Below, piece after piece: positions 47,909 to 61,099 of a DNA stretch of 64,000 nt. The position numbers were made by a program, and so were the translations under genes. Source of the DNA: Pseudorhodoferax sp. Leaf274 (GTDB lineage Bacteria > Pseudomonadota > Gammaproteobacteria > Burkholderiales > Burkholderiaceae_C); contig NZ_LMNA01000023.1 of the NCBI RefSeq assembly GCF_001422445.1, positions 260,362-324,361 of the forward strand, read 5' to 3'. Below the pieces are notes generated by a model. That model saw only the letters and a list, made by a program, of their open reading frames with translations, was not told the origin of the DNA and made no database searches. Position 1 is the stretch's first letter. Each line of letters opens with the position of its first letter.

Positions 47909-49327
47909 TCAGGCCGGGCGGCGTTGGGGCAGCAGGGATGGCTTGCCGCATGCGAGCAGGCGGCCCTGGCCGGGCCGTGCATGGAACTGCCCGTCCCACA
48001 CCACCTCGCCCCGGCAGAGCGTGATGCCAGGCCAGGCCTTGAGCCGCATGCCCTCGTAGGGCGTGTAGTCCACCTCGTGGTGCAGCTGTTCGTTGCGCAG
48101 CACGAACTCGCGTTCGTCCCAGATCACAAGGTCGGCGTCCGCGCCGATCGCGATCGTGCCCTTGCGCGGGTGCAGGCCGTAGGCCTTGGCCGGGCCCGTG
48201 GCCGTGAGTTCGACGAAGCGGTGCGGCGTCATGCGGCCGGCCAGCACGCCTTCGGACCACAGCAGCGCCATGCGCGTCTCCAGGCCCGGGATGCCGTTGG
48301 GGATGTGGCGGAACGACACCTCCTCGCCGTTCGGCTTCTTGCCCTCGGGCGCGTCGAACTTGAAGGGCGCGTGGTCGGACGAGAACACCGTGAACAGCCC
48401 GTCGTTGAGCCCATCCCAGATCACCTGCTGGTTCGCGCGGTCGCGCGGCGGCGGGCTGCAGACGCACTTGGCGCCCTTGTAGCTGTCGTCGATGCCCAGG
48501 TCCTCGGCCGTCAGGAACAGGTACTGTGGGCAGGTCTCGGCGAAGATGTTCAGGCCATGCGCGCGCGCCCAACGGATCTGCTCCACGGCCTCGCGGCCCG
48601 ACACGTGCACGATCAGGATGGGCACGTCCACGAGTTCGGCCAGCGCGATCGCGCGGTGCGTGGCCTCGCGCTCCACGAGCATGGGCCGCGCATGCGCATG
48701 GAAGCGTGGCGCCGTACGGCCCGCAGCCTCCAGCCGGCGCGTGAGCCACTCGATGCAGTCGGCGTTCTCGGCGTGCACCATGGCCAGCGCGCCGTGCTGG
48801 CGGGCCACGTCCAGCACGTCCAGGATCTGGCCGTCGTCCAGCTTCATGTCGTCGTAGGTCATGTAGATCTTGAACGAGGTGAAGCCTTCCTGGATGAGCG
48901 CCGGCAGCTCCTCCTGCAGCACCGTGGGCGTGGGGTCGCTCACGATCAGGTGGAAGGCGTAGTCGATGTGCGCCTTGCCTGCCGCGCGCGCGCGGTAGTC
49001 CTCCACCGCCGCGCGCAGCGACTGGCCCTTCTGCTGCGCGGCGAACGGGATCACCGTGGTGGTGCCGCCGCAGGCGGCCGAGCGCGTGCCCGTGTCGAAG
49101 TCGTCGGCGTTGCGCGTGGGCGGCGGCATCGGCTGGTCGAGGTGGCAGTGCGCGTCCACGCCGCCGGGCGTCACGGTGCGGCCTGCGGCATCGATCTCCT
49201 GCTTGCCAGCGGGCAGGCCCAGGCCCAGCTGGGCGATGCGGCCGCCGCGGATGCCGATGTCGCAGTCGAAGCTGTCGGAGGCGGTCACGGCCCGCGCGTT
49301 GCGGATCACAAGGTCGAAGTCGGACAT
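47909..49327 (-). CDS. Dihydropyrimidinase/hydantoinase-type cyclic amidohydrolase
   Basis: Zinc amidohydrolase of 472 residues. Metal ligands are in place: DAHCHLDQP, the carboxylated Lys in SFKIYMTYDD, His in MVHAEN and VHVSGREA, and Asp in FSSDHAPFKF. N-terminal MSDFDLVIRNARAVTA is typical. It opens cyclic ureides or amides such as dihydropyrimidines and hydantoins. ATG 49327 suits the family; an ATG at 49360 that overlaps the upstream stop as TGATG would add 11 residues. Member of the GntR-regulated island. Confidence 0.9.
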   Translation of the reverse strand: MSDFDLVIRNARAVTASDSFDCDIGIRGGRIAQLGLGLPAGKQEIDAAGRTVTPGGVDAHCHLDQPMPPPTRNADDFDTGTRSAACGGTTTVIPFAAQQKGQSLRAAVEDYRARAAGKAHIDYAFHLIVSDPTPTVLQEELPALIQEGFTSFKIYMTYDDMKLDDGQILDVLDVARQHGALAMVHAENADCIEWLTRRLEAAGRTAPRFHAHARPMLVEREATHRAIALAELVDVPILIVHVSGREAVEQIRWARAHGLNIFAETCPQYLFLTAEDLGIDDSYKGAKCVCSPPPRDRANQQVIWDGLNDGLFTVFSSDHAPFKFDAPEGKKPNGEEVSFRHIPNGIPGLETRMALLWSEGVLAGRMTPHRFVELTATGPAKAYGLHPRKGTIAIGADADLVIWDEREFVLRNEQLHHEVDYTPYEGMRLKAWPGITLCRGEVVWDGQFHARPGQGRLLACGKPSLLPQRRPA

Positions 49328-49359
49328 GGGTGGTGTTGTGGTGGAAATGGGGGGAGGCA

Positions 49360-50166
49360 TCAGGCCGCCATCCAGCCGCCGTCGACCATGAGTTGGGCGC
49401 CGGTGGTGAAGGTCGATTCGCGGCTGGACAGGAACAGCACGGCCTGCGCCACGTCGTCGGGCCGGCCCAGGCGCGGCCAGGGCGTGCGGCGTGTCGCGCG
49501 GTCCATCACGGCCGCATCCAGCGCACGGCCGCCCTGGCCGGTCTGGATCTTGCCGGGCGCCACCGCGTTGCAGACGATCTGCTGCGCGGCGTAGTCGGTG
49601 GCCACCTGGCGCGTGAGGTAGCCGATGCCGGCCTTGCTCACGCCATAGGCCAGGTCCTCGGGCGCGGCGATCATGCCGTGCTGCGAGGCCAGGTTCACGA
49701 TGCGGCCGCGCACCTCGTCAACGGCCGCCTGGCGCAGCATCTGGCGCACGGCGGCGCGGCAGCAGCGGTAGACGCCCGACAGGTTCACGTCGAGCACGCG
49801 CTGCCAGTCGGCTTCTTCCAGGTCGAGCAGCGGCCGCGCGTGCCGGATGCAGGCGTTGTTGACCAGCACGTCGAGCCGGCCGAAGCGGGCCACGGTCTCG
49901 TCGACCAGCGCATCGACCTGCGCCGTGCTGGCCACGTCGGTGGCGACGAAGCAGGCCCGGCCTCCGGCGGCTTCGATGGCGGCCACGGTCGGCGGCCCGC
50001 CTTCGATGGCGTCGGTCGTCACGTCGGCCACGACCACGGCAGCGCCGTGCGCGGCCAGCAGGCGCGCGATGGCGCGGCCGATGCCCGAGGCGGCGCCGGT
50101 GACGATGCAGACCTGGCCGGCCATGCGGGCCGCGGCGGCGGGCTGGAGGGCGTAGGCGTCAGGCAT
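49360..50166 (-). CDS. Short-chain dehydrogenase/reductase
   Basis: Classical SDR of 268 residues. Cofactor motif VTGAASGIGRAIA (about residues 23-35), acidic VVVADV favouring NAD(H), NNA segment, catalytic Ser in NLASQHG and YGVSK, C-terminal GAQLMVDGGWMA. It overlaps the epimerase gene by 8 bases and is followed closely by the hydantoinase-like gene. It probably oxidises a hydroxyl intermediate in the same pathway. Confidence 0.9.
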   Translation of the reverse strand: MPDAYALQPAAAARMAGQVCIVTGAASGIGRAIARLLAAHGAAVVVADVTTDAIEGGPPTVAAIEAAGGRACFVATDVASTAQVDALVDETVARFGRLDVLVNNACIRHARPLLDLEEADWQRVLDVNLSGVYRCCRAAVRQMLRQAAVDEVRGRIVNLASQHGMIAAPEDLAYGVSKAGIGYLTRQVATDYAAQQIVCNAVAPGKIQTGQGGRALDAAVMDRATRRTPWPRLGRPDDVAQAVLFLSSRESTFTTGAQLMVDGGWMAA

Positions 50167-51160
50167 GGGCGGGGGCGGGGGCGGGTTGGGCGGCGCCGTG
50201 CTGTTGCCGCCATGCCAGGAAGTCCTCGGCCGCGGCGCGCAGGTCGTAGCGCGGCACGAAGCCGGTGTCGGCGCGCAGGTGCGCGATGTCCATGGGCGCG
50301 CGGTCGTAAGGCGCGTAGTAGTCGATGTCGGCCGTGTCAGCCGCGATCTGCCAGGACCAGCCCGGGTGCGCGGCAGCCACGGCGGCGCACCAGTCCGACA
50401 TGCGGCCCATGAAGCCTGCGGCGACGTTGTAGACGGGGCGCGGCAGCTGCGGGCGGTCCAGCAGGGCCTGCAAGCCAGCAGCGGCGTCGCGCACGTAGAG
50501 CCAGTCGCGCGTGCTCTCGCGCGGCAGCCGCACGGCCTCGCCGCGCTCGGCGCGCAGCAGCACCTGCAGCGGCGCGCTGAGCGTGTCGCGCACGCCGGTG
50601 TCGGCCTCCCAGGGGCCGAAGCAGGTGCCCAGGCGGCCGACCACGAGGTCCAGGCCGTGCAGGGCGGCGATCCGCAGTGCCGCGGCTTCGGCGGCCTGCT
50701 TGGAAATGCCGTACAGGCCTTCGGGCCGCAGCGGCGTGCTGTCCTCGTGCAGCGCCTGCGCGTCGATGCCGCTGGCGCCGTAGACCGACCCCGAGCTGGC
50801 GTGCACGATGCGCCGTACACCCGTGGCTGCGGTGGCCGTCAGCGCCGCCACCACGCCGCCCAGGTTGACCTCGAAGATCGCGCCGGGCGTGGTGCGCTCG
50901 CGCCGCGCATCGGCCGTGATCGCGGCCAGCGTGACCAGGCGCTGCGGCCGGTGGGCGCGCATGGCGGCCTCCAGGGCCGATGTGTCGCGTACGTCGCCCT
51001 GCACCAGGCTGAAGCGGCCGGGCAGCGCGGCAAAGGCCCGCGCCGCGGCCGGCGGCAGCGGCGCACGGTCGAAGCCGACCACGGCCTCGCCAGCGTGTAG
51101 CAGGCGCTCGGCCAGCGCCAGGCCGACGAAGCCGCAGGCGCCTGTGATGAAGATGGGCAT
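50159..51160 (-). CDS. NAD-dependent epimerase/dehydratase family protein
   Basis: Extended SDR of 333 residues. N-terminal MPIFITGACGFVGLALAERLL holds the GxxGxxG motif; VHASSGSVYGASG and YGISKQAAE supply Ser and the Tyr/Lys pair. Similar genes in Burkholderiales accompany sugar-acid or polyol catabolism, so a sugar-like moiety on the substrate is conceivable. It starts on the ATPase stop (TGATG), implying coupled translation. Confidence 0.88.
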   Translation of the reverse strand: MPIFITGACGFVGLALAERLLHAGEAVVGFDRAPLPPAAARAFAALPGRFSLVQGDVRDTSALEAAMRAHRPQRLVTLAAITADARRERTTPGAIFEVNLGGVVAALTATAATGVRRIVHASSGSVYGASGIDAQALHEDSTPLRPEGLYGISKQAAEAAALRIAALHGLDLVVGRLGTCFGPWEADTGVRDTLSAPLQVLLRAERGEAVRLPRESTRDWLYVRDAAAGLQALLDRPQLPRPVYNVAAGFMGRMSDWCAAVAAAHPGWSWQIAADTADIDYYAPYDRAPMDIAHLRADTGFVPRYDLRAAAEDFLAWRQQHGAAQPAPAPAHA

Positions 51161-51939
51161 CAGGCAGCCACCGCGGCCGGTGCAACGGGCTCTGGCCGCA
51201 GCAGCTGCAGGATGCGGCGCTTGGTGTCGTTGAACTGCGGGCTGGTGGAATCGCGCGGGCGCGGCAGGTCGATGGTCAGCATCTCGCGGATGCGGCCCGG
51301 CCGCGCCGACATCACGGCCACGTGCGTGCCCAGCGCCAGCGATTCGTCGATGCCGTGCGTCACGAACACGATGGTGCTCTGGCTGTCGCGCCAGATGCGG
51401 ACCAGCTCGGCATGCATCTCCATCTTGGTCTGCTCGTCCAGCGCGCCGAAGGGCTCGTCCATGAGGATCACCTCCGGGTTCATGAGCAGCGCACGCGCGA
51501 TGCCCACGCGCTGGTTCATGCCGCCCGAGAGTTCGCTCGGAAAATGGTTCTCGAAGCCCTTCAGGTTCACCATCTCGATGAAATGCTGGGCCTTCTTGCG
51601 GCGGATGTCCTTGCCCACGCCCTGCATGGTCAGGTGGAAGGCCACGTTCTCCCAGACCGTGAGCCAGGGCATCAGCGTGGGCTGCTGGAACACCACGCCG
51701 CGGTCCGCCCCCGGTGCGGTGACCGGCTGGCCGCCCACGCGCACGCTGCCGCTGGAGGGCCTGTCGAAGCCCGCGATCAGGTTCAGCAGCGTGGACTTGC
51801 CGCAGCCGCTGGGGCCCAGCAGGCACAAGAACTCGTTGCGCGCCACGTGCACGCTGACATCGTCCAGCGCTTTCACGGCGTTGCCACGCTTGGGGTCGTC
51901 GAACAGACGGGTGACGTGGTCGATCTCGATCAAACTCAT
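51160..51939 (-). CDS. Nitrate/sulfonate/taurine-type ABC transporter ATP-binding protein
   Basis: ATPase of an NMT1/TauA-type importer, 259 residues. Walker A GPSGCGKS at residues 42-49, Q-loop FQQPTLMPW, signature SGGMNQR, Walker B VILMDEPFGALD and H-loop VFVTHGIDE. One base separates it from the permease stop. Family substrates include sulfonates, nitrate, hydroxymethylpyrimidine and aromatic acids. Confidence 0.93.
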   Translation of the reverse strand: MSLIEIDHVTRLFDDPKRGNAVKALDDVSVHVARNEFLCLLGPSGCGKSTLLNLIAGFDRPSSGSVRVGGQPVTAPGADRGVVFQQPTLMPWLTVWENVAFHLTMQGVGKDIRRKKAQHFIEMVNLKGFENHFPSELSGGMNQRVGIARALLMNPEVILMDEPFGALDEQTKMEMHAELVRIWRDSQSTIVFVTHGIDESLALGTHVAVMSARPGRIREMLTIDLPRPRDSTSPQFNDTKRRILQLLRPEPVAPAAVAA

Positions 51940-51940
51940 T

Positions 51941-52765
51941 TCATACTTCCTTTGCCTGCAGGGTGGAGCCGCGCTGCCACCGGAGAACGCGGCCGGCCAG
52001 CAGCTTGATCGCCAGGTCGCTCAGGAAGCCCAGCAGGCCGATGCTGACCATGGCCGCGATCACGATGTCGTAGCGCAGGAAGTAGTACGAATCCCAGAGC
52101 ACATAGCCCACGCCGCTCTTGACGGCCACCATCTCGGCCGTGACGGTCAGCATCCAGGCCGAGCCGATGGCGATGCGCAGGCCCGAGAAGATGCTGGGCA
52201 GCGCGGCCGGGAACACGATGTGGCGCAGCAGCTTGCCGGGCGTGCCGCCGGCCATGGCGCCGGCGCGCAGCAGGTTGCGGTCGCAGGTCTTCACGCCGTG
52301 GATGGTGGACAGCAGCACCGGGAAGAACGAGCCCAGGAACACCAGGAAGATGGCCGGCTTGTTGGCGATGCCGAACCAGATGATGGCCAGCGGAATCCAC
52401 GACACGGGCGGCACCGGCCGCAGGATCTGCAGCACCGGTTCGATCAGCCGCTCGACCGTGCGCGACCAGCCGATGGCCATGCCGATGCCCACGCCCAGCA
52501 GCGTGGAGATGGCGAAGCCGGCAAACACGCGCGAGGCACTGGCGGCCACGTCCTGGATCCATTTGCCGCTGTAGGTCTGGGTGTTTCCGTCCGTCGCGAA
52601 GACCCAGTCCGCCCAGGCCAGCAACACCTGCGAGGGGGCCGGCAGCAGCGCGGGCGGCAGCACGCCGGAGCGCGAGAAGATCTCCCAGCCGATCAGCAGC
52701 GCGACCGGGACGATCGCGCGCTCGATGCGCCGGTACAGGGAGAGCAAGGCGGAGGCTTGGGTCAC
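51941..52765 (-). CDS. Nitrate/sulfonate/taurine-type ABC transporter permease
   Basis: Inner-membrane permease of 274 residues with about six spans. RPVPPVSWIPLAIIWFGIANKPAIFLVFLGSFFP and the EAA-like loop AGAMAGGTPGKLLRHIVFPAALPSIFSGLRIA are characteristic of SsuC/TauC proteins. It lies 10 bases after the binding-protein gene. Part of the importer that opens the island's largest operon. Confidence 0.92.
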   Translation of the reverse strand: MTQASALLSLYRRIERAIVPVALLIGWEIFSRSGVLPPALLPAPSQVLLAWADWVFATDGNTQTYSGKWIQDVAASASRVFAGFAISTLLGVGIGMAIGWSRTVERLIEPVLQILRPVPPVSWIPLAIIWFGIANKPAIFLVFLGSFFPVLLSTIHGVKTCDRNLLRAGAMAGGTPGKLLRHIVFPAALPSIFSGLRIAIGSAWMLTVTAEMVAVKSGVGYVLWDSYYFLRYDIVIAAMVSIGLLGFLSDLAIKLLAGRVLRWQRGSTLQAKEV

Positions 52766-52775
52766 GCGAACGTCC

Positions 52776-53771
52776 TCAGTAGCCCAGCGCCGACTTCGGC
52801 TGGCCCGTGGCCGCTTCCAGGAAGCGGTAGTCCATGTTCTTCTCCACGGCCGCGCTCACGTCGCTGTTGATGTACTTCAGGTCGCGCATCATCTGCGCGA
52901 TGGCCACGGCCGAGGCGCGGTGCATGGCGTGGTCGGGGTACAGGTTGGCCACGGCGCCGGTGGCGATGGCCTTGTCCAGGCCGGTCACCTTCTGGATGGT
53001 GTCGATGAACAGCGCCTTGTCGGCGGCCATGATGCCGTTGACCTTGACGATGGCGCGCACCGTTTCCTCCACGCCCTTGGCGCGGCCGGCGATCACGTCC
53101 GAGCGCGTCACGATCAGGTTGGTCAGCTTGCCGGCGGCCTGGTCGTACGGGAAGGTGAAGAACTTGGCGGCCTTCACCTCGCGGATCTGGGTGGCGAAGG
53201 GGTCGACCGAGCAGATCAGCTCGACCTCGCCGCGGCGCAGCGCCTGCACGTGGTCGGACGGGTTCGGGATGTTGATGAACTGCACATCCTTGTTGATGTC
53301 GATGCCCTGCTTGGCGAATGCGCCGCGCATGTGGATGTCCTGCGCATTGCCGCGCGAGGCCGCCACGCGGAAGGGCTTGCCCTGGGCCTTGTAGTCGGCA
53401 ATCAGCTTCTTGAGGCCGGCCCAGTCGTTCTCGGCCAGCGGCAGGTCGTTGCCCACGAGGATCTGCGAGCCGCCGTTGATCTGGCCCGAGATCGCGACCA
53501 CGTCGAAGCCCTTGTCGAGCGCGGTGGCGTAGTGCAGGTAGGTGACCTGGGCCACGTCGATGCTCTTGGAGAGCAGGGCCGTCAGCACGTCGTTGCCGGT
53601 GTTGAACGCGATGGCCTCAAGCTTGACGTTGCTGGCGTTGGCCGGCGTCAGCGCCAGCGGCGTGCAATGCGCGCACTTGGCGTAGCCGAGCTTGATGGCG
53701 TCCTGGGCCTGGCCTGCCAGCGGCAGGACAGCGGCCGCGGCGAGGGCGAGGCGGGCGAGAAGTTTGAACAT
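52776..53771 (-). CDS. NMT1/TauA-type ABC substrate-binding protein with a CAHC motif
   Basis: Periplasmic receptor of 331 residues, first gene of the seven-gene operon. Signal peptide to about residue 22 (AAVLPLAGQAQ). Just inside the mature protein is GYAKCAHCTPLALTP: two Cys spaced CxxC with a His, at the place where the ligand pocket of this fold begins. AGGGAG precedes the ATG. Two GntR-type sites lie 71-82 and 176-187 bases upstream. Ligand unknown. Confidence 0.9.
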   Translation of the reverse strand: MFKLLARLALAAAAVLPLAGQAQDAIKLGYAKCAHCTPLALTPANASNVKLEAIAFNTGNDVLTALLSKSIDVAQVTYLHYATALDKGFDVVAISGQINGGSQILVGNDLPLAENDWAGLKKLIADYKAQGKPFRVAASRGNAQDIHMRGAFAKQGIDINKDVQFINIPNPSDHVQALRRGEVELICSVDPFATQIREVKAAKFFTFPYDQAAGKLTNLIVTRSDVIAGRAKGVEETVRAIVKVNGIMAADKALFIDTIQKVTGLDKAIATGAVANLYPDHAMHRASAVAIAQMMRDLKYINSDVSAAVEKNMDYRFLEAATGQPKSALGY

Positions 53772-53841
53772 GGAGCTCCCTGGAGGTTGGCCGGGCCCGC
53801 GGGCGCGGGACCTGCTGCCATCGAGCAAGGGACATGCCAAG

Positions 53842-53853
53842 TTTGTATCCAAT
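53842..53853. promoter_or_regulatory. GntR-type operator TTTGTATCCAAT (site A)
   Basis: Lies 71 bases before the binding-protein gene at 53771. Six bases beyond TTTGTATCCAATC stands GTGTTTGTCGCCA, the second half of a block shared with sites C and D in the same register. The half-site TTG-N4-CAA symmetry is typical of GntR-family operators. Confidence 0.7.
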
Positions 53854-53946
53854 CCAATAAGTGTTTGTCGCCAAACAGATTCATTGGAGAAATCGCCCAT
53901 TGGCAGGCAGCGCGTGGCACAGGGACGGATCCACGCCATGCGCCAC

Positions 53947-53958
53947 ATTGGATACAAA
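53947..53958. promoter_or_regulatory. GntR-type operator, inverted copy ATTGGATACAAA (site B)
   Basis: Exact reverse complement of site A's 12-mer, 105 bases away, which is ten helical turns. The pair would allow looping across the promoter of the seven-gene operon. It also lies 28 bases before the end of the convergent-reading amidohydrolase gene's stop at 53986. Confidence 0.7.
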
Positions 53959-53985
53959 GTGCCCGGCCTTGGTGCGCGTCGGCCT

Positions 53986-55344
53986 TCAGCGCCAGTACGG
54001 CTTGCCCTCCGCGCCCCACAGCGCGCGCGCCGCCTGCTCCGCCTCGGCGCAGACGGCATCCATGTCCACGCGCGTGGGCCGGCCGTTCTCCACCAGGATC
54101 TCGCCGTCGACGAGCACCATGGACACGTCGCGCCCCTGGCCCGTGTGGACCAGGTTGCCGAGCGGGTTCACGTGCGGACGCAGGTGCGGCCGGTTGGCGT
54201 CGAACACCACGATGTCGGCCGCCTTGCCCAGTGCCAGGCTGCCGGTGTCGTCCGCCATGCCCAATGCCCTGGCACCACCCATGGTGGCCATGTGGAACAC
54301 GTCGCGCGGCTGCCAGCTGTCGTCCACGAGGCCTTCCTGCACGCGCGCGGTGGCCAGCGCCCAGCGCATCAGTTCGACCATGTCGCCGTGCTGCGTGTCG
54401 GTGGCCAGCGCCATGTTCACACCCGCGCGCTTGAGCATGGGCGTGGGCGCCAGCCGGCCCGAGGTGGCGTTGCACTTGGGGATGTGCACGGCATGCGCAC
54501 CGGCCGCGGCCATGCGGGCCGCATCCTCGGGCGTCACGTAGATGCAGTGGCCGCCCATCAGTCGTTCGCCCAGCAGGCCGGTGTCGGCCAGCACCTCGGT
54601 GGAGCTGCGGCCGCAGCGTGCGCGCACGCGCTCGACCTCCACCTGGCTCTGCCCCAGGTGCGTGCTGACGACCAGGCCGTGCTGCGCCGATGCCGCCGCC
54701 ACCTCGCGCAGGAAGCCCTCCGAGCAGGTGTCCACTGCATGCGCGGCGAGGTTCACGCGCACGCGCGGGTGAGAAGCCCAGCGCGCGTGCAGGTCCAGCC
54801 CGGCCTGCAGCGTGGCGTGGCCGATGGCCGCACTGTGGTGCCAGTCGCCGTGCGCCACGCGCGCGAAGTCCACGTCGTGGATGCGCCAGCTCGGCGCCAG
54901 CCGCATGCCGAGCTCCACCATGGCCTCGGTCGTCACATCGGCATGCACGAAGTTGTCGCCCAGCACGGTGGAGCCGAACAGCAGTGCCTCCAGCGCGCCG
55001 AGCCGGGCCAGCGCGCGCGCCTGCTCGGGGTTCACCTGCGTGCCCTTGGGAATGCCCGGTGTGTAAGAGGGCGCGAAGCCCAGGTCGGCCGCCACGCCGC
55101 GCACCATGGTCAGGATGGAGTGCGCATGGGTGTTGACGAAGCCCGGCGTGACGAAGTGGTCCGGCAGGCGCAGCACGCGGCTGGCCTGGTAGCGCTCGGG
55201 CGGCTGCGCGGCCAGCCAGGCGATGCGGCCGTTCGCGATGCCGATGGCGGCGCCGCGGATTTCGGGTTGCGCGGGGTCGGCTGTCAGCGCGATGGCGTCC
55301 AGCAGCAGCAGGTCGAAGGTGGGGGTGTGGGCTGGGTCGGTCAT
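53986..55344 (-). CDS. Amidohydrolase, deaminase-like (TrzA/AtzB/SsnA type)
   Basis: Metal-dependent hydrolase of 452 residues, deaminase/chlorohydrolase branch of the amidohydrolase superfamily. Metal ligands: HAH in FVNTHAHSIL, His in VVSTHLGQS, His in LMGGHCIYVT and Asp in LATDTQHGD. Such enzymes deaminate or dechlorinate N-heterocycles (guanine, cytosine, s-triazines, S-adenosylhomocysteine). Its own promoter carries GntR site C, 30 bases upstream. Downstream of the GntR gene on the same strand. Confidence 0.9.
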   Translation of the reverse strand: MTDPAHTPTFDLLLLDAIALTADPAQPEIRGAAIGIANGRIAWLAAQPPERYQASRVLRLPDHFVTPGFVNTHAHSILTMVRGVAADLGFAPSYTPGIPKGTQVNPEQARALARLGALEALLFGSTVLGDNFVHADVTTEAMVELGMRLAPSWRIHDVDFARVAHGDWHHSAAIGHATLQAGLDLHARWASHPRVRVNLAAHAVDTCSEGFLREVAAASAQHGLVVSTHLGQSQVEVERVRARCGRSSTEVLADTGLLGERLMGGHCIYVTPEDAARMAAAGAHAVHIPKCNATSGRLAPTPMLKRAGVNMALATDTQHGDMVELMRWALATARVQEGLVDDSWQPRDVFHMATMGGARALGMADDTGSLALGKAADIVVFDANRPHLRPHVNPLGNLVHTGQGRDVSMVLVDGEILVENGRPTRVDMDAVCAEAEQAARALWGAEGKPYWR

Positions 55345-55374
55345 GCGGCCGTTGCAAGCAACGGCCGTGCCGAC

Positions 55375-55386
55375 TTTGTATCCAAT
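55375..55386. promoter_or_regulatory. GntR-type operator TTTGTATCCAAT (site C)
   Basis: Identical 12-mer to site A, 30 bases before the amidohydrolase start and within the 67-base gap behind the GntR gene. The companion element at the same spacing is conserved mainly in its second part (TGTCGCC). A short palindrome GCCGTTGC-N2-GCAACGGC lies between it and the start codon. Confidence 0.7.
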
Positions 55387-55411
55387 CTGCCGATCGACTG
55401 TCGCCGAGGTC

Positions 55412-56149
55412 TCAGCCCAGCAGGGCTTCGGCCAGGTCGATCTCTGGCGCGGCCTCGGCGTCCAGGTTCAGCGATTTCTCGATGTGGTGCAGGTGCTCGT
55501 CCATGAGCGCCACGGCGGCCTCGGCCTGGCCGGCCTCGATGGCGTCCAGCAGCTCGGTGTGCTCGTCGTTCGGGCAGGCCGCGCCGGTGGGGGCGTCGAA
55601 GGTCAGGATGGCCAGGCAGGTCAGCGGCGTGAGCTCGCGCAGCATGCGCGTCATGATCGCGCTGCCCGACAGCTGGGCCAGCAGCACGTGGAACTCGCCC
55701 GACAGCCGCACGGCCGAACGCCGGTCGCCGTTGGCATGGGCCTGCTGCTCGCGCTTGACGAGCGCGCGCAGCTGCTTGATGGCGGTGGGCGCCTTGCCCG
55801 CGGCGATCCGGTCGATCAGCCGCCGCACCACGGCCGGCTCCAGCGTGCGCCGCACCTCCAGCACGTCGTGCGCCTCCTCGGCGCTGGGCGTGGTCACGAA
55901 GGCGCCGCGGTTGGGGATCAGCGTCACGAGCTGCTCCACGGCCAGGCGCTGCAGCACGCCGCGCACCTGGGTGCGACTGACCGCGAACAGCTCGGCCACG
56001 CGCTCCTCCGACAGCTTGGTGCCGGGCAGCAGCCGGTGCTCGACCACGGCCTCGTAGATGCGTTCGTAGATGTCGTCCTTGGAGGCGGCCTTGCCGCTGG
56101 CGTGGGAGGAGGACAGCCGCAGCGTGCGCCGGGACGGAGGGGGGGCCAT
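55412..56149 (-). CDS. GntR-family regulator, FCD subfamily
   Basis: DNA-binding repressor-type protein of 245 residues. Winged helix at about residues 26-90 (IYEAVVEHRLLPGTKLSEERVAELFAVSRTQVRGVLQRLAVEQLVTLIPNRGAFV in shorter pieces), then the helical FCD ligand domain with metal-binding positions in EFHVLLAQLSG, DEHTELLDAI and MDEHLHHIE. It sits in the centre of the catabolic island and is the obvious candidate to bind sites A-D. Probably co-transcribed with the two genes before it, hence auto-regulated through site D. Confidence 0.93.
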   Translation of the reverse strand: MAPPPSRRTLRLSSSHASGKAASKDDIYERIYEAVVEHRLLPGTKLSEERVAELFAVSRTQVRGVLQRLAVEQLVTLIPNRGAFVTTPSAEEAHDVLEVRRTLEPAVVRRLIDRIAAGKAPTAIKQLRALVKREQQAHANGDRRSAVRLSGEFHVLLAQLSGSAIMTRMLRELTPLTCLAILTFDAPTGAACPNDEHTELLDAIEAGQAEAAVALMDEHLHHIEKSLNLDAEAAPEIDLAEALLG

Positions 56150-56215
56150 GGGTGGTGCTGGCGGTGGTGGTGAAGGGGGCCCGCGAGGGCAGGCGGATGG
56201 TAGCGGCTGGGCAGG

Positions 56216-56947
56216 TCAGCCGGCAGGCAGTTCGCTGAACAGGCGGCCCCAGCCCTGCACGCGGCGCGTGTCCACGCCGGCCAGGCGCAGCGACTTCCAG
56301 ACGGCGGTGGCGATGGTGTCGTAGACGGGCATGTCCAGCTCGGCCTCCAGCGCCGGCACCAGCTGCGCGGCGCGCAGGTTGGTGCAGAAGGTGGTGATGC
56401 ACTGCGGCCCGGCGGTGGCGAGTTCGCGCGCCATGGCCTCGATCTGCGCGGGCGTGACCTCGGAGAACTCGAAGTTGACCTGCCTGTCCAGGTGGCGCTC
56501 GGCCACGCAGTCGAAGCCGCTCGCGCGGTAGTTGGCCACGATGCGCTGCTGCACGTCGCCCAGGTAGGGCGAGGCCAGGCCGAAGCGCGTGCGGCCCGAG
56601 AGCTGCATGGCCTCGTTGAGCGCCAGCACCGAGGTGCAGGCGGGGATGCCGGTCTCTGCGGTGATGCGCGCACACAGGGCTTCGTCGGTGTCGAAGCCCA
56701 GCCAGCCCGAGGAGGTGCCGTTCCAGGCGATCACGTCCACGCGCGCATCGGCCAGCAGCCGCGCGGCCTGCAGGATGGGCTCCAGGTCGAACTGGCCCAG
56801 CGCCTGTGCGGACAGCGAGATCTCCGTCACGCGAAAGCGCGCGAAATGCGCCGACACCTCGGGCAGGCCCGCGAGCATGGCCGCCGTGAGCGGCTCCAGC
56901 GCGGTGTTGGACGAGGGCGTCAGCATGCCCAGCAGCACGCGCTCCAT
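56216..56947 (-). CDS. Maleate isomerase / Asp-Glu racemase superfamily protein
   Basis: Protein of 243 residues with the two-domain racemase fold. It opens VLLGMLTPSSNTALEPLTAAML, the signature of maleate cis-trans isomerases and arylmalonate decarboxylases, and keeps both cysteines (IPACTSVLALNEA and TTFCTNLRAAQL). Likely isomerises an unsaturated dicarboxylate or racemises an intermediate. The start overlaps the binding-protein stop (TGATG). Maleate or maleamate arises in nicotinate-type ring degradation, which may be a hint. Confidence 0.88.
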   Translation of the reverse strand: MERVLLGMLTPSSNTALEPLTAAMLAGLPEVSAHFARFRVTEISLSAQALGQFDLEPILQAARLLADARVDVIAWNGTSSGWLGFDTDEALCARITAETGIPACTSVLALNEAMQLSGRTRFGLASPYLGDVQQRIVANYRASGFDCVAERHLDRQVNFEFSEVTPAQIEAMARELATAGPQCITTFCTNLRAAQLVPALEAELDMPVYDTIATAVWKSLRLAGVDTRRVQGWGRLFSELPAG

Positions 56948-57996
56948 CAGACCTTGACCTCCCGGTTGAAGCGGTCGATGTACTCGCCGCGGCGCGGGTT
57001 CAGCTTGGCCCAGTCCACGCCGTTCATGGCCTCGATCTCGGCCACGTTCTTCGCGTAGGCCTGCAGGCCGGGGCTGAACTGCGCCTTGCTGCTGACCGGC
57101 GCGACGAAGTAGGGCGCGGCCGCCATCTGGGTCTGCACCTCGGGGCTCAACGCGGCGTTGATGTAGGCGGCGGCGAGGTCGGGGTTCTTGGTGTTCTTGA
57201 CGATGTGCATCACGCTCTTGATGTGGATCCAGCCCGTCTCGGGCTTGGCCAGCGCCACCGGCACGCCCTTGCCCTGCAGGTCGCCCACGTTGTTGTTGTA
57301 GTGCACGGAGATGTCGATCTGGCCCTGCTGGAACAGCGTGGCCAGGGAGCCGGGGTTGCTGGCCACGGCACTCACGTTGGGCAGCAGCTTCTTGACGAAC
57401 TGGAAGGCAGGTTCGAGGTTCTCCTCGCTGCCGCCGTTCAGGCGCGCGATCTCCACCATCCAGGCCGACATCAGCGTCGAGCCCATGCCCGCCAGGCCCA
57501 CGCGGCCCTTGTACTCGGGCTTGAGCAGGTCGTTCCAGTTCTTGGGTGGGTTCTTGATCTTCTCGGTGTTGTAGGCGATGCCGATGATCTGGCCCGACAC
57601 GAACACCCCCAGGCCGCGCGGATCGACCAGCTTGGGCGGCACGTCCTTGAGGTTGGGCATCTTGTCCACCGGGATCTTCTCGAAGATGTCCTGCGACAGC
57701 GCGGCCAGGTAGGGGCCTTCGTCCAGGATCACCACGTCGTAGGGCGGGTTGGCCTTGGAGGCGACGATCTTGGACACCGTGTCCACCGCCAGCGAAGAGA
57801 CCAGGCTCGTCGACGCGCCCGTGGCCTTGGCGAAGGCCGGCAGCAGGATGCTGCGGTGCGCCGATTCCCAGGCGCCCGGATAGGTGGTCGCCGAGATGGT
57901 CTTGGACTGGGCGTGCGCCAGGCTGGCGTGCAGCGGCAGTTGGGCGGCACCGAAACCGGCTGCGGCTTGCAGCAGCGTGCGGCGGGACAGGGACAT
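56947..57996 (-). CDS. Spermidine/putrescine-type ABC substrate-binding protein (PotD-like)
   Basis: Periplasmic receptor of 349 residues with a twin-arginine signal (MSLSRRTLLQAAAGFGAAQL, ending AHAQ). Type II binding-protein features follow: SALAVDTVSKIVASKANPPYDVVILDEGP and IAYNTEKIKNPPKNWNDLLKPEYKGRVGLAG. It is the receptor for the divergently encoded ATPase and permeases at 58286-61099. Despite the family name, related systems carry many organic amines and acids. Confidence 0.9.
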   Translation of the reverse strand: MSLSRRTLLQAAAGFGAAQLPLHASLAHAQSKTISATTYPGAWESAHRSILLPAFAKATGASTSLVSSLAVDTVSKIVASKANPPYDVVILDEGPYLAALSQDIFEKIPVDKMPNLKDVPPKLVDPRGLGVFVSGQIIGIAYNTEKIKNPPKNWNDLLKPEYKGRVGLAGMGSTLMSAWMVEIARLNGGSEENLEPAFQFVKKLLPNVSAVASNPGSLATLFQQGQIDISVHYNNNVGDLQGKGVPVALAKPETGWIHIKSVMHIVKNTKNPDLAAAYINAALSPEVQTQMAAAPYFVAPVSSKAQFSPGLQAYAKNVAEIEAMNGVDWAKLNPRRGEYIDRFNREVKV

Positions 57997-58146
57997 GGGT
58001 GGACTCCTAGGTTGCGAGGGCTGCCCGATGGCGGGACTCGCCATGCCAGCGCAAGCTTTGTGCCATGGCCTGTATCCAGGGGCGTGGGTGCCGCGCCCTC
58101 CCAAGCCGGTGCGGCGCCTGCGCCAATGTGGCGCAGCGCGCACCAA

Positions 58147-58180
58147 ATTGTGCTCAATGAAAAACGAGATTGTGTCCAAT
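58147..58180. promoter_or_regulatory. Tandem GntR-type operators (site D, two copies)
   Basis: ATTGTGCTCAAT at 58147-58158 and ATTGTGTCCAAT at 58169-58180, 22 bases apart (two helical turns), in the divergent region between the binding-protein gene (57996) and the ATPase gene (58286). The second copy is followed, after six bases, by GTGTTTGTTGCCA as at site A. A weaker relative, CTGTATCCAG, is near 58069. Confidence 0.65.
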
Positions 58181-58218
58181 CTGTTCGGTGTTTGTTGCCA
58201 GAGCGGCTGCCGGCCAGT

Positions 58219-58234
58219 GGCACGTTTCTTGAGT
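58219..58234 (+). promoter_or_regulatory. Sigma-54-like promoter before the PotABC-type operon
   Basis: TGGCACG-TTTC-TTGAG matches the -24/-12 consensus (TGGCACG-N4-TTGCA) except that the -12 GC is GA. It ends 52 bases before the ATPase start. The mismatch is at an important base, so activity is uncertain. No sigma-54 activator gene is in the window. Confidence 0.35.
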
Positions 58235-58285: not shown

Positions 58286-59374
<1,089 letters not shown>

Positions 59375-59385
59375 CCGGGGTGGCG

Positions 59386-60237
59386 ATGGCAACCGCACCC
59401 CGCTTCGCGCCGCCGCTGGGCCTGGCGCTGCCGCTCGGCATCTTCTTCCTGTTCTTTGTGTTCGCGCCCATGCTGCTGCTGGGCTGGATCAGCCTGCACA
59501 ACGACCAGGGCATGACGCAGTTCGGCATCGCCCAGTACGCCAAGTTCCTGGGCGACGGCTTCAACCTCGGCGTGCTGGGCAGCACGCTGTGGCTGGGCCT
59601 GAAGGTCACGGCGTTGACGCTGCTGATCGGCTTTCCGCTGGCCTACCTCTACACGCAGGCCCCGGCGCGCTGGCAGGGCCTGCTCATGCTGCTGATCGTG
59701 CTGCCGCTGCTCACGAGCTCGGTGGTGCGCACCTTCGCCTGGGTCGTGATCCTGGGCCGCCAGGGCATCGTGAACACGGCGCTGCTCGACCTGGGCCTGA
59801 TCGCCGAGCCGCTCAAGCTGCTCTACACACCGGGCGGCGTGACGGTGGCGCTGGCGCAGATCGAGCTGCCGCTCATGGTGCTGCCGCTCATCACCTCGCT
59901 CATGAACACCGATGCCAACCTGCGCCAGGCCTCGCTGGCGCTCGGCGCGGGCCATTGGCGCACTTTCTGGCAGGTGACGCTGCCGCTCACCATGCCGGGC
60001 CTCCTGGCCGGCGCGCTGCTGGTGTTCGCCTCCAGCATCAGCGCCTTCGTCACGCAGACGCTGGTGGGCGGCGGGCAGCAGATGTTCATGCCCTATTACA
60101 TGTACCAGCAGGCCATCCAGGCCAACAACTATCCGTTCGCCGCCGCGATCGCGATGCTGCTGCTGGCCAGCGTGCTGGCCGTGGTCGTCGCCATCAACGC
60201 CGTGGGCCGCCGCAGCCGGGGATTCGTCCATGCCTGA
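59386..60237 (+). CDS. Spermidine/putrescine-type ABC transporter permease (PotB family)
   Basis: Inner-membrane permease of 283 residues with six spans. FAPMLLLGWISLHN at the N-terminus, LPLLTSSVVRTFAWVVILGRQGIVN in the middle and the EAA loop ASLALGAGHWRTFWQVTLPLTMPGLLAG. Overlaps the next permease gene by 8 bases, so the two are translated together. Confidence 0.92.
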   Translation: MATAPRFAPPLGLALPLGIFFLFFVFAPMLLLGWISLHNDQGMTQFGIAQYAKFLGDGFNLGVLGSTLWLGLKVTALTLLIGFPLAYLYTQAPARWQGLLMLLIVLPLLTSSVVRTFAWVVILGRQGIVNTALLDLGLIAEPLKLLYTPGGVTVALAQIELPLMVLPLITSLMNTDANLRQASLALGAGHWRTFWQVTLPLTMPGLLAGALLVFASSISAFVTQTLVGGGQQMFMPYYMYQQAIQANNYPFAAAIAMLLLASVLAVVVAINAVGRRSRGFVHA

Positions 60238-61099
60238 TGCCTTCGTTTCCGGCGCCCCCGTGCGCCCCGCCGCCGCGCCGCGCGCGGCCGAGTCGTTGGG
60301 CGCCGCGTTCGAGCGGCGCTCGTTCTGGGCCGTGTTCGGCCTGCTCGGCGTGTTCGCCGGCGTGCTACTGCTGGCGCCCACGGTGGTGGTGCTGGTCACC
60401 TCGTTCACGAGCGGCTTCTCGCTCAAGTTTCCGCCGCCGGGCTACTCGGTGCGCTGGTACCAGGCGCTGTGGGATTCGCCGGAGCTGATCGAGGCCGGCG
60501 TGCTCTCGCTCAAGCTGGCGGCGATGGCCACGGGCATCTCGGCCGTGCTGGCGGTGGCGGCGGCGCTGGCGCTGGCACGCCGGCGCGAGGGCTGGGCGCG
60601 CGCGGCCGAGGCCGTGCTGCTGTCGCCGCTGATGCTGCCGGCGCTGGCCATCGGCCTGTCGCTGTTGATGCTGTTCAACATCGCAGGCACGGGCCTGTCG
60701 TTCACCACGCTGGTGCTGGGCCACATCGCCATCACCACGCCCTACATCCTGCGCACCACCTCGGCCAGCCTGCTGCAGATGGACGGCGTCCTGCTGGAAA
60801 GCGCCCACTCGCTGGGCGCCTCGCCGCTCTACGTGTTCCGCACCATCACGCTGCCGCTGATCGCGCGCGGCGTCGCGGCGGGGGCCTTCATCGGCTTCAT
60901 GTACTCGTTCGACAACGTGGCCGTGTCGCTGTTCCTCTCGGACGCGCGCAGCGAGGTGCTGCCAATCCGCATGTGGCACATCATCGAATCGAACCTGGAT
61001 GTGCGGGCAGCGGCCGTGTCGGGCGTGCTGATCGCAGCCACGCTGGTCCTCATGGTCGTCATGGAGCGCGTGGCCGGCATCACCCGCCACATGCGGTGA
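60230..61099 (+). CDS. Spermidine/putrescine-type ABC transporter permease (PotC family)
   Basis: Second permease, 289 residues. FKFPPPGYSVRWYQ-like extracytoplasmic segment (SLKFPPPGYSVRWYQALW), EAA loop ESAHSLGASPLYVFRTITLPLIARGVAAG, and FIGFMYSFDNVAVSLFLS in the last spans are typical of PotC. Completes the importer whose receptor is encoded divergently at 56947-57996. Confidence 0.92.
   Translation: MPDAFVSGAPVRPAAAPRAAESLGAAFERRSFWAVFGLLGVFAGVLLLAPTVVVLVTSFTSGFSLKFPPPGYSVRWYQALWDSPELIEAGVLSLKLAAMATGISAVLAVAAALALARRREGWARAAEAVLLSPLMLPALAIGLSLLMLFNIAGTGLSFTTLVLGHIAITTPYILRTTSASLLQMDGVLLESAHSLGASPLYVFRTITLPLIARGVAAGAFIGFMYSFDNVAVSLFLSDARSEVLPIRMWHIIESNLDVRAAAVSGVLIAATLVLMVVMERVAGITRHMR

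Follow-up and report, generated by a model that had tools for sequence, protein, structure and literature searches.

A stretch of 64,000 nucleotides from Pseudorhodoferax sp. Leaf274, referred to below as the window and located at C23:260362-324361 of the 6,735,869-base (6.74 Mb) genome, holds a gene cluster around a GntR/FCD regulator (55412-56149, minus strand), in which copies of the 12-mer TTTGTATCCAAT and its variants stand in front of transporter and amidohydrolase genes. With high confidence, these copies are read as operators of the FCD protein, a presumed repressor predicted to gate the sigma-54 promoters of a nitrogen-heterocycle regulon. Judged from sequence, four of the 12-mer sites are very probably operators of the 55412-56149 protein. 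The position, conservation, spacing and co-occurrence of the sites are direct observations. The predicted sites are as follows.

53842-53853, plus strand: main operator TTTGTATCCAAT of the NMT1-type transporter operon, invariant in 5/5 aligned species
53864-53875, plus strand: second operator copy TTTGTCGCCAAA, +22 bp, part of the GTGTTTGTYGCCA block
53947-53958, minus strand: distal operator TTTGTATCCAAT upstream of the NMT1-type operon, TTTGTATCCAAA in 2/5 aligned species
55375-55386, plus strand: main operator TTTGTATCCAAT of the amidohydrolase gene
55397-55408, plus strand: very weak operator-like copy ACTGTCGCCGAG, +22 bp, score -9.1, the weakest of the three +22 copies
58069-58080, plus strand: operator CCTGTATCCAGG with the same 8-base core, adjoining the promoter of the PotD-like substrate-binding protein (SBP)
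58147-58158, plus strand: operator-like copy ATTGTGCTCAAT, -22 bp from 58169, overlapping an NtrC-like box
58169-58180, plus strand: operator ATTGTGTCCAAT in the divergent SBP/PotA region
58191-58202, plus strand: operator-like copy TTTGTTGCCAGA, +22 bp from 58169

The original prediction had named five copies of the 12-mer, and all five were found at the coordinates it gave. They do flank the genes around the regulator, as it claimed, but its set was incomplete and overlooked CCTGTATCCAGG at 58069-58080. The gap from the 12-mer to the GTGTTTGTYGCCA block, described as six bases, is actually seven at both places (53854-53860 and 58181-58187). Operators are present at the three transcription units that it distinguished, but the promoters number at least four.

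The sites are rare in the genome. TTKGTRTCCAAT has three matches in all 6,735,869 bases, every one in the cluster, with none for the reversed-pattern control, and site 58169 joins them when A is permitted at position 1. With up to one mismatch, WTTGTRTCCAAT is matched 13 times (7 forward, 6 reverse) versus 3 for the reversed control; four of these matches are exact and lie in the cluster, and the nine one-mismatch copies all lie elsewhere, one of them (L011) with its surroundings examined. Within the window, nine matches to WTTGTRTCCAAT occur at up to two mismatches versus 2.89 expected, a number reached in 1/100 shuffles, and the five further matches all carry two mismatches. The genome-wide search suggested with the original prediction did not refute it, since the 12-mer is not common and its exact copies are confined to the cluster.

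Conservation within the genus group points the same way. Regulator orthologues of 93-96% identity are found in four of the five other same-genus genomes, and the four operator sites are kept at orthologous places in all five regulator-bearing genomes, the window's included, which is the outcome of the comparison of orthologous promoters that had been proposed. The site matching 53947 reads TTTGTATCCAAA in two of the four other regulator-bearing genomes. Another genome of the genus (G001) lacks both a regulator orthologue (at E 1e-70) and any copy of WTTGTRTCCAAT. One extra 12-mer copy was detected outside the cluster in each of two relatives, G002 and G003. In G003 the copy precedes a transporter gene of NCS1-like type (scoring below that family's cut-off) and what looks by eye like a racemase-type start; a 38% paralogue of the regulator is encoded close by. 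At the corresponding position the window's genome reads TTTGTATCCAAA. The G002 copy is ATTGTGTCCAAT, far from the cluster (G002:C36:218906; L079:4907, minus strand).

Phylogenetic footprints revealed a second conserved feature next to the operators, namely -24/-12 boxes of the sigma-54 type, which we infer to be used by sigma-54. The predicted promoters are listed here; the box counts include the window and exclude matches below 55% identity.

53824-53839, minus strand: sigma-54 -24/-12 promoter TGGCATGTCCCTTGCT of the NMT1-type operon, box in 12/13 sequences
55357-55372, minus strand: sigma-54 -24/-12 promoter CGGCACGGCCGTTGCT of the amidohydrolase gene, box in 12/15 sequences
58050-58065, minus strand: sigma-54 promoter TGGCACAAAGCTTGCG of the operon of SBP, arylmalonate-decarboxylase (AMDase)-like protein and GntR regulator, box in 23/24 sequences
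58218-58233, plus strand: sigma-54-like promoter TGGCACGTTTCTTGAG of the PotABC operon, with A for C at -12

The consensus GG-N10-GC (TGGCAC...TTGC) is conserved at the SBP, NMT1 and amidohydrolase promoters, and the sole SBP sequence without a box, L090, is cut by a contig end. YGGCAYGNNNNTTGCW has just two matches in the window, both on the minus strand: one at 53824, immediately downstream of operator 53842, and one at 55357, immediately downstream of operator 55375 (0.14 matches expected; two matches in 0/100 shuffles), and the operator core TGGATACA at 58069-58080 lies beside the SBP box at 58050. At each minus-strand unit of the window 2-3 bp separate the operator from the -24 box downstream of it; across genomes this distance is 1-3 bp at the NMT1 promoter and 0-3 bp (once 11) at the amidohydrolase promoter. 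The PotABC promoter, 37 bp from operator 58169, carries a YGGCAY-N5-TTG box in 21/22 loci, followed by A in 20 and T in 1; it fails the sigma-54 consensus (GG-N10-GA in 20, GG-N10-GT in 1 of 22) yet is conserved. The genome contains rpoN, and YTGGCAYGNNNNTTGCW occurs at only six places in it (control 1).

The amidohydrolase promoter region has a feature of its own. A perfect inverted repeat, GGCCGTTGC-AA-GCAACGGCC, occupies 55347-55366 and is invariant in 5/5 aligned species; it shares bases with the -12 box, and two bases separate its end from the amidohydrolase start codon. The predicted sigma-54 start at this gene would leave the mRNA nearly leaderless.

The association between site and regulator extends to other genera. 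A scan with the SBP yielded 24 loci, of which L082, L083, L084 and L103 are contigs of G002-G005, and L098 and L105 come from one assembly. The 12-mer is present with at most one mismatch in 20/24 of them; the loci without it are L090 and L105, which end at a contig edge, and L099 and L100, whose regulators are 52-53% identical. L085 and L097 have operators and no regulator in the fetched stretch, and their genomes hold orthologues of 77% and 74%. In V. ginsengisoli, one of these two genomes, the regulator is encoded on another contig, beside five more 12-mer copies (at most one mismatch). In Pseudacidovorax intermedius (G220), the amidohydrolase gene shares a contig with the regulator at a distance of ~119 kb, a different contig carries the NMT1 operon, and the 12-mer is present at all three places alike. 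A reshuffled gene set was found in G206, where a regulator of 76-77% identity accompanies a hydantoinase (90%), an amidase and another Pot-like transporter, with the site present twice. As the site recurs in reshuffled and unlinked loci, it follows the regulator and not one gene order.

Presence and absence were then compared over 200 family genomes. The module TGGATACA-N1-6-GGCAY-N5-TTGC gave 13 matches in 6/200 genomes (reversed control 0), the three in the window's genome being the three minus-strand units. A regulator scan of 200 genomes drawn in the same way found a match at E 1e-65 in seven genomes, six of which are the module genomes (76-100% identity). Within 19 kb around the gene of the seventh (G180, 54%) neither the module nor the 12-mer occurs. 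Because the genomes are related, this co-occurrence is a pattern and not a probability. The proposal that the 12-mer is an operator marking a regulon is strongly supported by conservation in the genus and by recurrence across genera, unlinked loci included.

Divergence of the regulator is accompanied by divergence of the site. The recognition-helix stretch SRTQVRG is shared by 21/21 aligned regulators of at least 66% identity. The 52-53% regulators of L099 (Rubrivivax pictus) and L100 (Aquabacterium) have SRAQVRD in its place, and their SBP/PotA gap lacks the 12-mer and contains the palindrome ATTGTCGACAAT. In the equivalent region of Rubrivivax pictus and Aquabacterium the palindrome GATTGTCGACAATC lies at L099:7753 and L100:7755; it is a probable operator of the diverged regulator. 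Joint presence and absence, together with the change of palindrome that goes with an altered recognition helix, strongly support the tie between the 12-mer and the 55412-56149 regulator that had been claimed.

More distant regulators were also inspected. Ten loci with regulators of 43-52% identity (L048, L050-L058), which were taken as other FCD regulators and set aside, have no site at one mismatch or less save TTTGTATGCAAT in L057 and L058. This sequence lies at L057:5376 and L058:5472, near 43-44% FCD homologues of other genera, and in L058 TTTGTACGCAAT stands on the opposite strand 23 bp from it; TTTGTATGCAAT may represent a sister type of operator that shares the tandem spacing. At L077:7123 and L078:6835 (both minus strand), an NCS1-like transporter gene is followed by the gene of a paralogous FCD regulator (38-39%), and the region upstream of the transporter contains TTTGTATCCAAA/T within an extended inverted repeat (TTGCGTCCGTTT ... 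AAACGGACGCAA for L077), possibly reflecting cross-talk or a shared ancestral operator. The one aligned paralogue has the helix SRTKVRA beside a TTTGTATCCAAA site.

The sites appear to be arranged in tandem. Flanks were scored with a matrix built from the main sites over 138 offsets, with 500 flank shuffles run on a thinned set (the window and 13 loci, 31/58 sites; sites within ~100 bases of a locus end were unscored). A 12-mer inside the PotC coding sequence, L096:5021, was left out of both this set and the full one. Offsets +22 and -22 ranked first and second, followed by +23, -23 and -24, and 0/500 shuffles reached the top mean; the full set of 58 sites gave the same top five. Since the +22 and -22 offsets head this scoring, the most plausible reading of the GTGTTTGTYGCCA block is a weaker repeat of the operator, its start 22 bases beyond that of the first copy. 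The 58147 sibling is likewise best read, by its sequence, as the -22 copy of 58169 in a three-site array at 58147, 58169 and 58191. In V. ginsengisoli two good operator copies lie 24 bp apart. The original prediction of whole helical turns thus stands for the 22-bp pairs, which recur between genera, and falls for the 105-bp pair, whose phasing was rejected, as the NMT1 pair spans 70, 91, 92 or 104-105 bp in other genomes.

The regulator and the genes that it would control are listed below.

47909-49360, minus strand: dihydropyrimidinase/D-hydantoinase-type amidohydrolase closing the likely NMT1 operon (NF009941 and TIGR02033, above cut-off)
51160-51939, minus strand: ABC ATPase
51941-52765, minus strand: ABC permease
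52776-53771, minus strand: NMT1-type substrate-binding protein opening a likely operon that reaches 47909
53986-55344, minus strand: TRZ/ATZ-type amidohydrolase
55412-56149, minus strand: GntR/FCD (FadR-subfamily) regulator, presumed repressor, 245 aa, recognition helix VSRTQVRGVLQRL
56216-56947, minus strand: AMDase/Asp-Glu-hydantoin-racemase-type protein
56947-57996, minus strand: PotD-like SBP opening a likely operon that ends in the regulator gene
58286-59374, plus strand: PotA-type ABC ATPase of the divergent operon, with PotB (59386-60237) and PotC (60230-61099)

The regulator combines an N-terminal GntR winged helix (PF00392, 3e-15) with a C-terminal FCD domain (PF07729, 4e-22), both above the gathering score, and belongs to the FadR (FCD) subfamily of the GntR family. 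All 13 of its matches among PDB sequences are named as transcriptional or fatty-acid regulators. His154, His197 and His219 could suit what we take to be the pattern of a metal-binding FCD pocket. The SBP, the AMDase/racemase-type protein and the regulator form one likely operon on the minus strand. Among genus-group species the SBP is 99-100% identical, and the adjacent regulator and AMDase-like proteins are 93-96% identical. Downstream of PotABC lie a deaminase-type gene and then a second amidohydrolase gene, and the far end of a relative's cluster holds a gene resembling allantoinase PuuE, below that family's cut-off. Judged by its genes, the cluster probably serves to import nitrogen heterocycles and open their rings.

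Two candidate enhancer sites lie between the divergent SBP and PotA promoters.

58119-58135, plus strand: NtrC-like perfect inverted repeat TGCGCCAATGTGGCGCA
58140-58153, plus strand: second NtrC-like box GCACCAAATTGTGC, whose half-sites are spaced 1 bp more tightly than those of the published consensus

The NtrC consensus reported in Pseudomonas is GCACCA-N3-TGGTGC (PMC12977541). The 58119 box matches GCRCCA-N3-TGGYGC, and the 58140 box is one base shorter between its half-sites. Not counting matches located elsewhere in L099 and L100, 18/24 sequences have a box of the 58140 type; 12 have the pair, with a constant spacing of 21 bp. The enhancer-binding protein is slightly more likely than not to be NtrC, against which the shorter 58140 box speaks, as it is unlike the textbook site. 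The enhancer-binding protein motif G[ASE]FTG[AS] is found in none of the six frames of the window and the 24 loci. TGCRCCANNNTGGYGCA, the NtrC palindrome, occurs at four places genome-wide (eight rows over both strands), and since the three outside the cluster lie within predicted reading frames, the scan yields no independent NtrC regulon. GCACCAAATTCGTGC with a TGGCACG-N4-GTGC box stands upstream of the gene that precedes a PII-type gene (by eye) and amtB; this fits use of NtrC elsewhere in the genome and proves nothing for the cluster.

From these features we infer binding by the regulator, repression rather than activation, use of sigma-54, NtrC, an inducer and the operon structure. The pseudo-palindrome WTTGTATCCAAT, with the core TGTATCCA / TGGATACA, would be bound by one regulator dimer; the weaker copies, at a distance of 22-24 bp and facing almost the same side of the helix, would take up additional dimers, and neighbouring dimers would help one another. 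With only 2-3 bp between the operator's end and the -24 box, a dimer in place would keep RNA polymerase-sigma-54 off the promoter or out of contact with the enhancer-binding protein. Transcription would then need both an enhancer-binding protein active under nitrogen limitation, NtrC being the likeliest, and a pathway inducer that releases the FCD protein; since the regulator gene is last in the SBP operon, autoregulation is expected. A wider version of this scheme is put forward tentatively, as one that we hold to be quite possible and slightly doubt: the operator and the -24 box would be fused into one transferable module of nearly fixed spacing, so that recruited genes, linked or not, become two-input gates responding to nitrogen limitation and substrate, and tandem dimers 22 bp apart may displace NtrC at 58140-58158.

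Several observations weigh against the operator and promoter assignments. Nine one-mismatch copies of the 12-mer sit elsewhere in the genome, and the 22-bp copies are weak, scoring above 0 in 14/58 cases at +22 and 12/58 at -22 with negative means. The operator abuts the SBP box only in Pseudorhodoferax and strain DE0202, and elsewhere lies tens of bases upstream or is unseen. At PotA the -12 element is TTGA and not TTGC in 20/22 loci, TTGT in 1 and none in 1. One of the G206 operators, in front of an amidase gene, has no sigma-54 box in the bases shown, and Ramlibacter L096 has neither operator nor box at the amidohydrolase gene. Two paralogous loci (regulator 38-39%) also carry TTTGTATCCAAA/T, and the 12-mer may not be exclusive to the 55412-56149 protein.

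Other explanations of the sites were weighed against the same data. The FCD protein could be an activator and not a repressor at these promoters, since sites just upstream of promoters can serve activators and some GntR proteins activate. This is improbable, because an AAA+ enhancer-binding protein is required at sigma-54 promoters and the FCD protein is not of that kind, and the site overlaps the expected polymerase footprint. A known case argues likewise, as the footprint of HutC overlaps a sigma-54 target site and HutC represses hutU in Pseudomonas (PMC12977541). Slightly less probable again is a reading in which the 12-mer is bound by another protein, such as an enhancer-binding activator of the sigma-54 promoters, and only travels with the cluster. 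It does stand upstream of sigma-54 promoters, and binding of the FCD protein is a prediction; but at the NMT1 and amidohydrolase promoters its distance of 0-3 bp (once 11) from the -24 box is too near for a usual enhancer, it is gone with the diverged regulators of L099 and L100 though the SBP sigma-54 boxes remain, it accompanies the regulator in a reshuffled gene set (L120), and one of its halves fits the FadR-subfamily form (TKGT/ACMA, PMC4494728).

Sigma-70 promoters, with a -35 element in GTGTTTGTYGCCA and a -10 element in the 12-mer, are very unlikely. The minus-strand pattern GCRACA-N18-YACAAW can be read by eye as a weak -35/-10 pair, but the would-be -35 is not kept between genera and the -24/-12 boxes are, and the GTGTTTGTYGCCA block is accounted for as a second operator. 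That the copies are chance repeats in intergenic DNA is hardly credible: the one-mismatch copies elsewhere in the genome are its only encouragement, and conservation between genera already refutes it, with rarity in the genome, conservation in the genus, absence from G001 and the module counts all contradicting it. Operators of an FCD repressor remain the preferred account.

HutC carries a UTRA domain, and Pfam finds only GntR and FCD domains in the 55412-56149 protein, which accordingly is not of the HutC subfamily. The hut system resembles the arrangement proposed here in that a local GntR repressor acts over a sigma-54 site in a nitrogen-compound pathway with NtrC in the circuit (PMC12977541). 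It is unlike in its GntR subfamily and its operator TGTA-N2-TACA, as here the regulator is of the FCD type and three units have the operator beside the -24 box. Because HutC belongs to another subfamily, it is, by analogy, a precedent for the working mode and not for family membership.

Operators of the FadR subfamily are palindromes built from TKGT/ACMA boxes, GT and AC being 2 nt apart in certain groups, and double and triple sites are quite common there (PMC4494728). The predicted operator TTGT-AT-CCAA has one canonical half, and the other half is TTGG/CCAA instead of TTGT/ACAA. That paper describes half-boxes at 7-12 nt (PMC4494728), whereas the extra copies here lie 22-24 bp centre to centre. 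Three dimers of E. coli NanR bind neighbouring repeats cooperatively, but these are short, close GGTATA direct repeats, in contrast to pseudo-palindromes about two turns apart whose cooperativity is presumed (PMC8012715).

Sigma-54 boxes before hydantoinase genes are already known: a putative RpoN box precedes the hydantoinase operon of Paraburkholderia phymatum (PMC5979394), and hydantoin racemase is among the genes enriched in sigma-54 targets (PMC12316311). The passages on these genes in the two sources mention no local GntR operator (PMC5979394, PMC12316311). A literature search, with supplements and RegPrecise outside it, found no description of the regulator, including GntR/FCD with TTGTATACAA or ATTGTATACAAT. 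Searches with TTTGTATCCAAT, ATTGGATACAAA, TTGTATCCAA or TTGGATACAA gave no GntR-regulator paper among the titles listed, and those on hydantoinase and GntR regulators gave none on this regulon, judged by title. The regulon and its operator are new and the regulator is of a known kind; an earlier in silico description of the regulon is possible.

The analysis assigns a regulon, and a consensus for the operator, to a regulator present in Pseudorhodoferax, Variovorax, Pseudacidovorax and relatives. This offers a handle on uncharacterised amidohydrolases and two ABC transporters, probably scavenging nitrogen heterocycles. If the proposed scheme is true, the cell would keep these genes off unless nitrogen were scarce and the compound available. 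The hut genes are the sole precedent found for a GntR repressor built into a sigma-54 promoter, and one regulator with many promoters in several genera would provide a natural series for how a local GntR repressor enters sigma-54 promoters.

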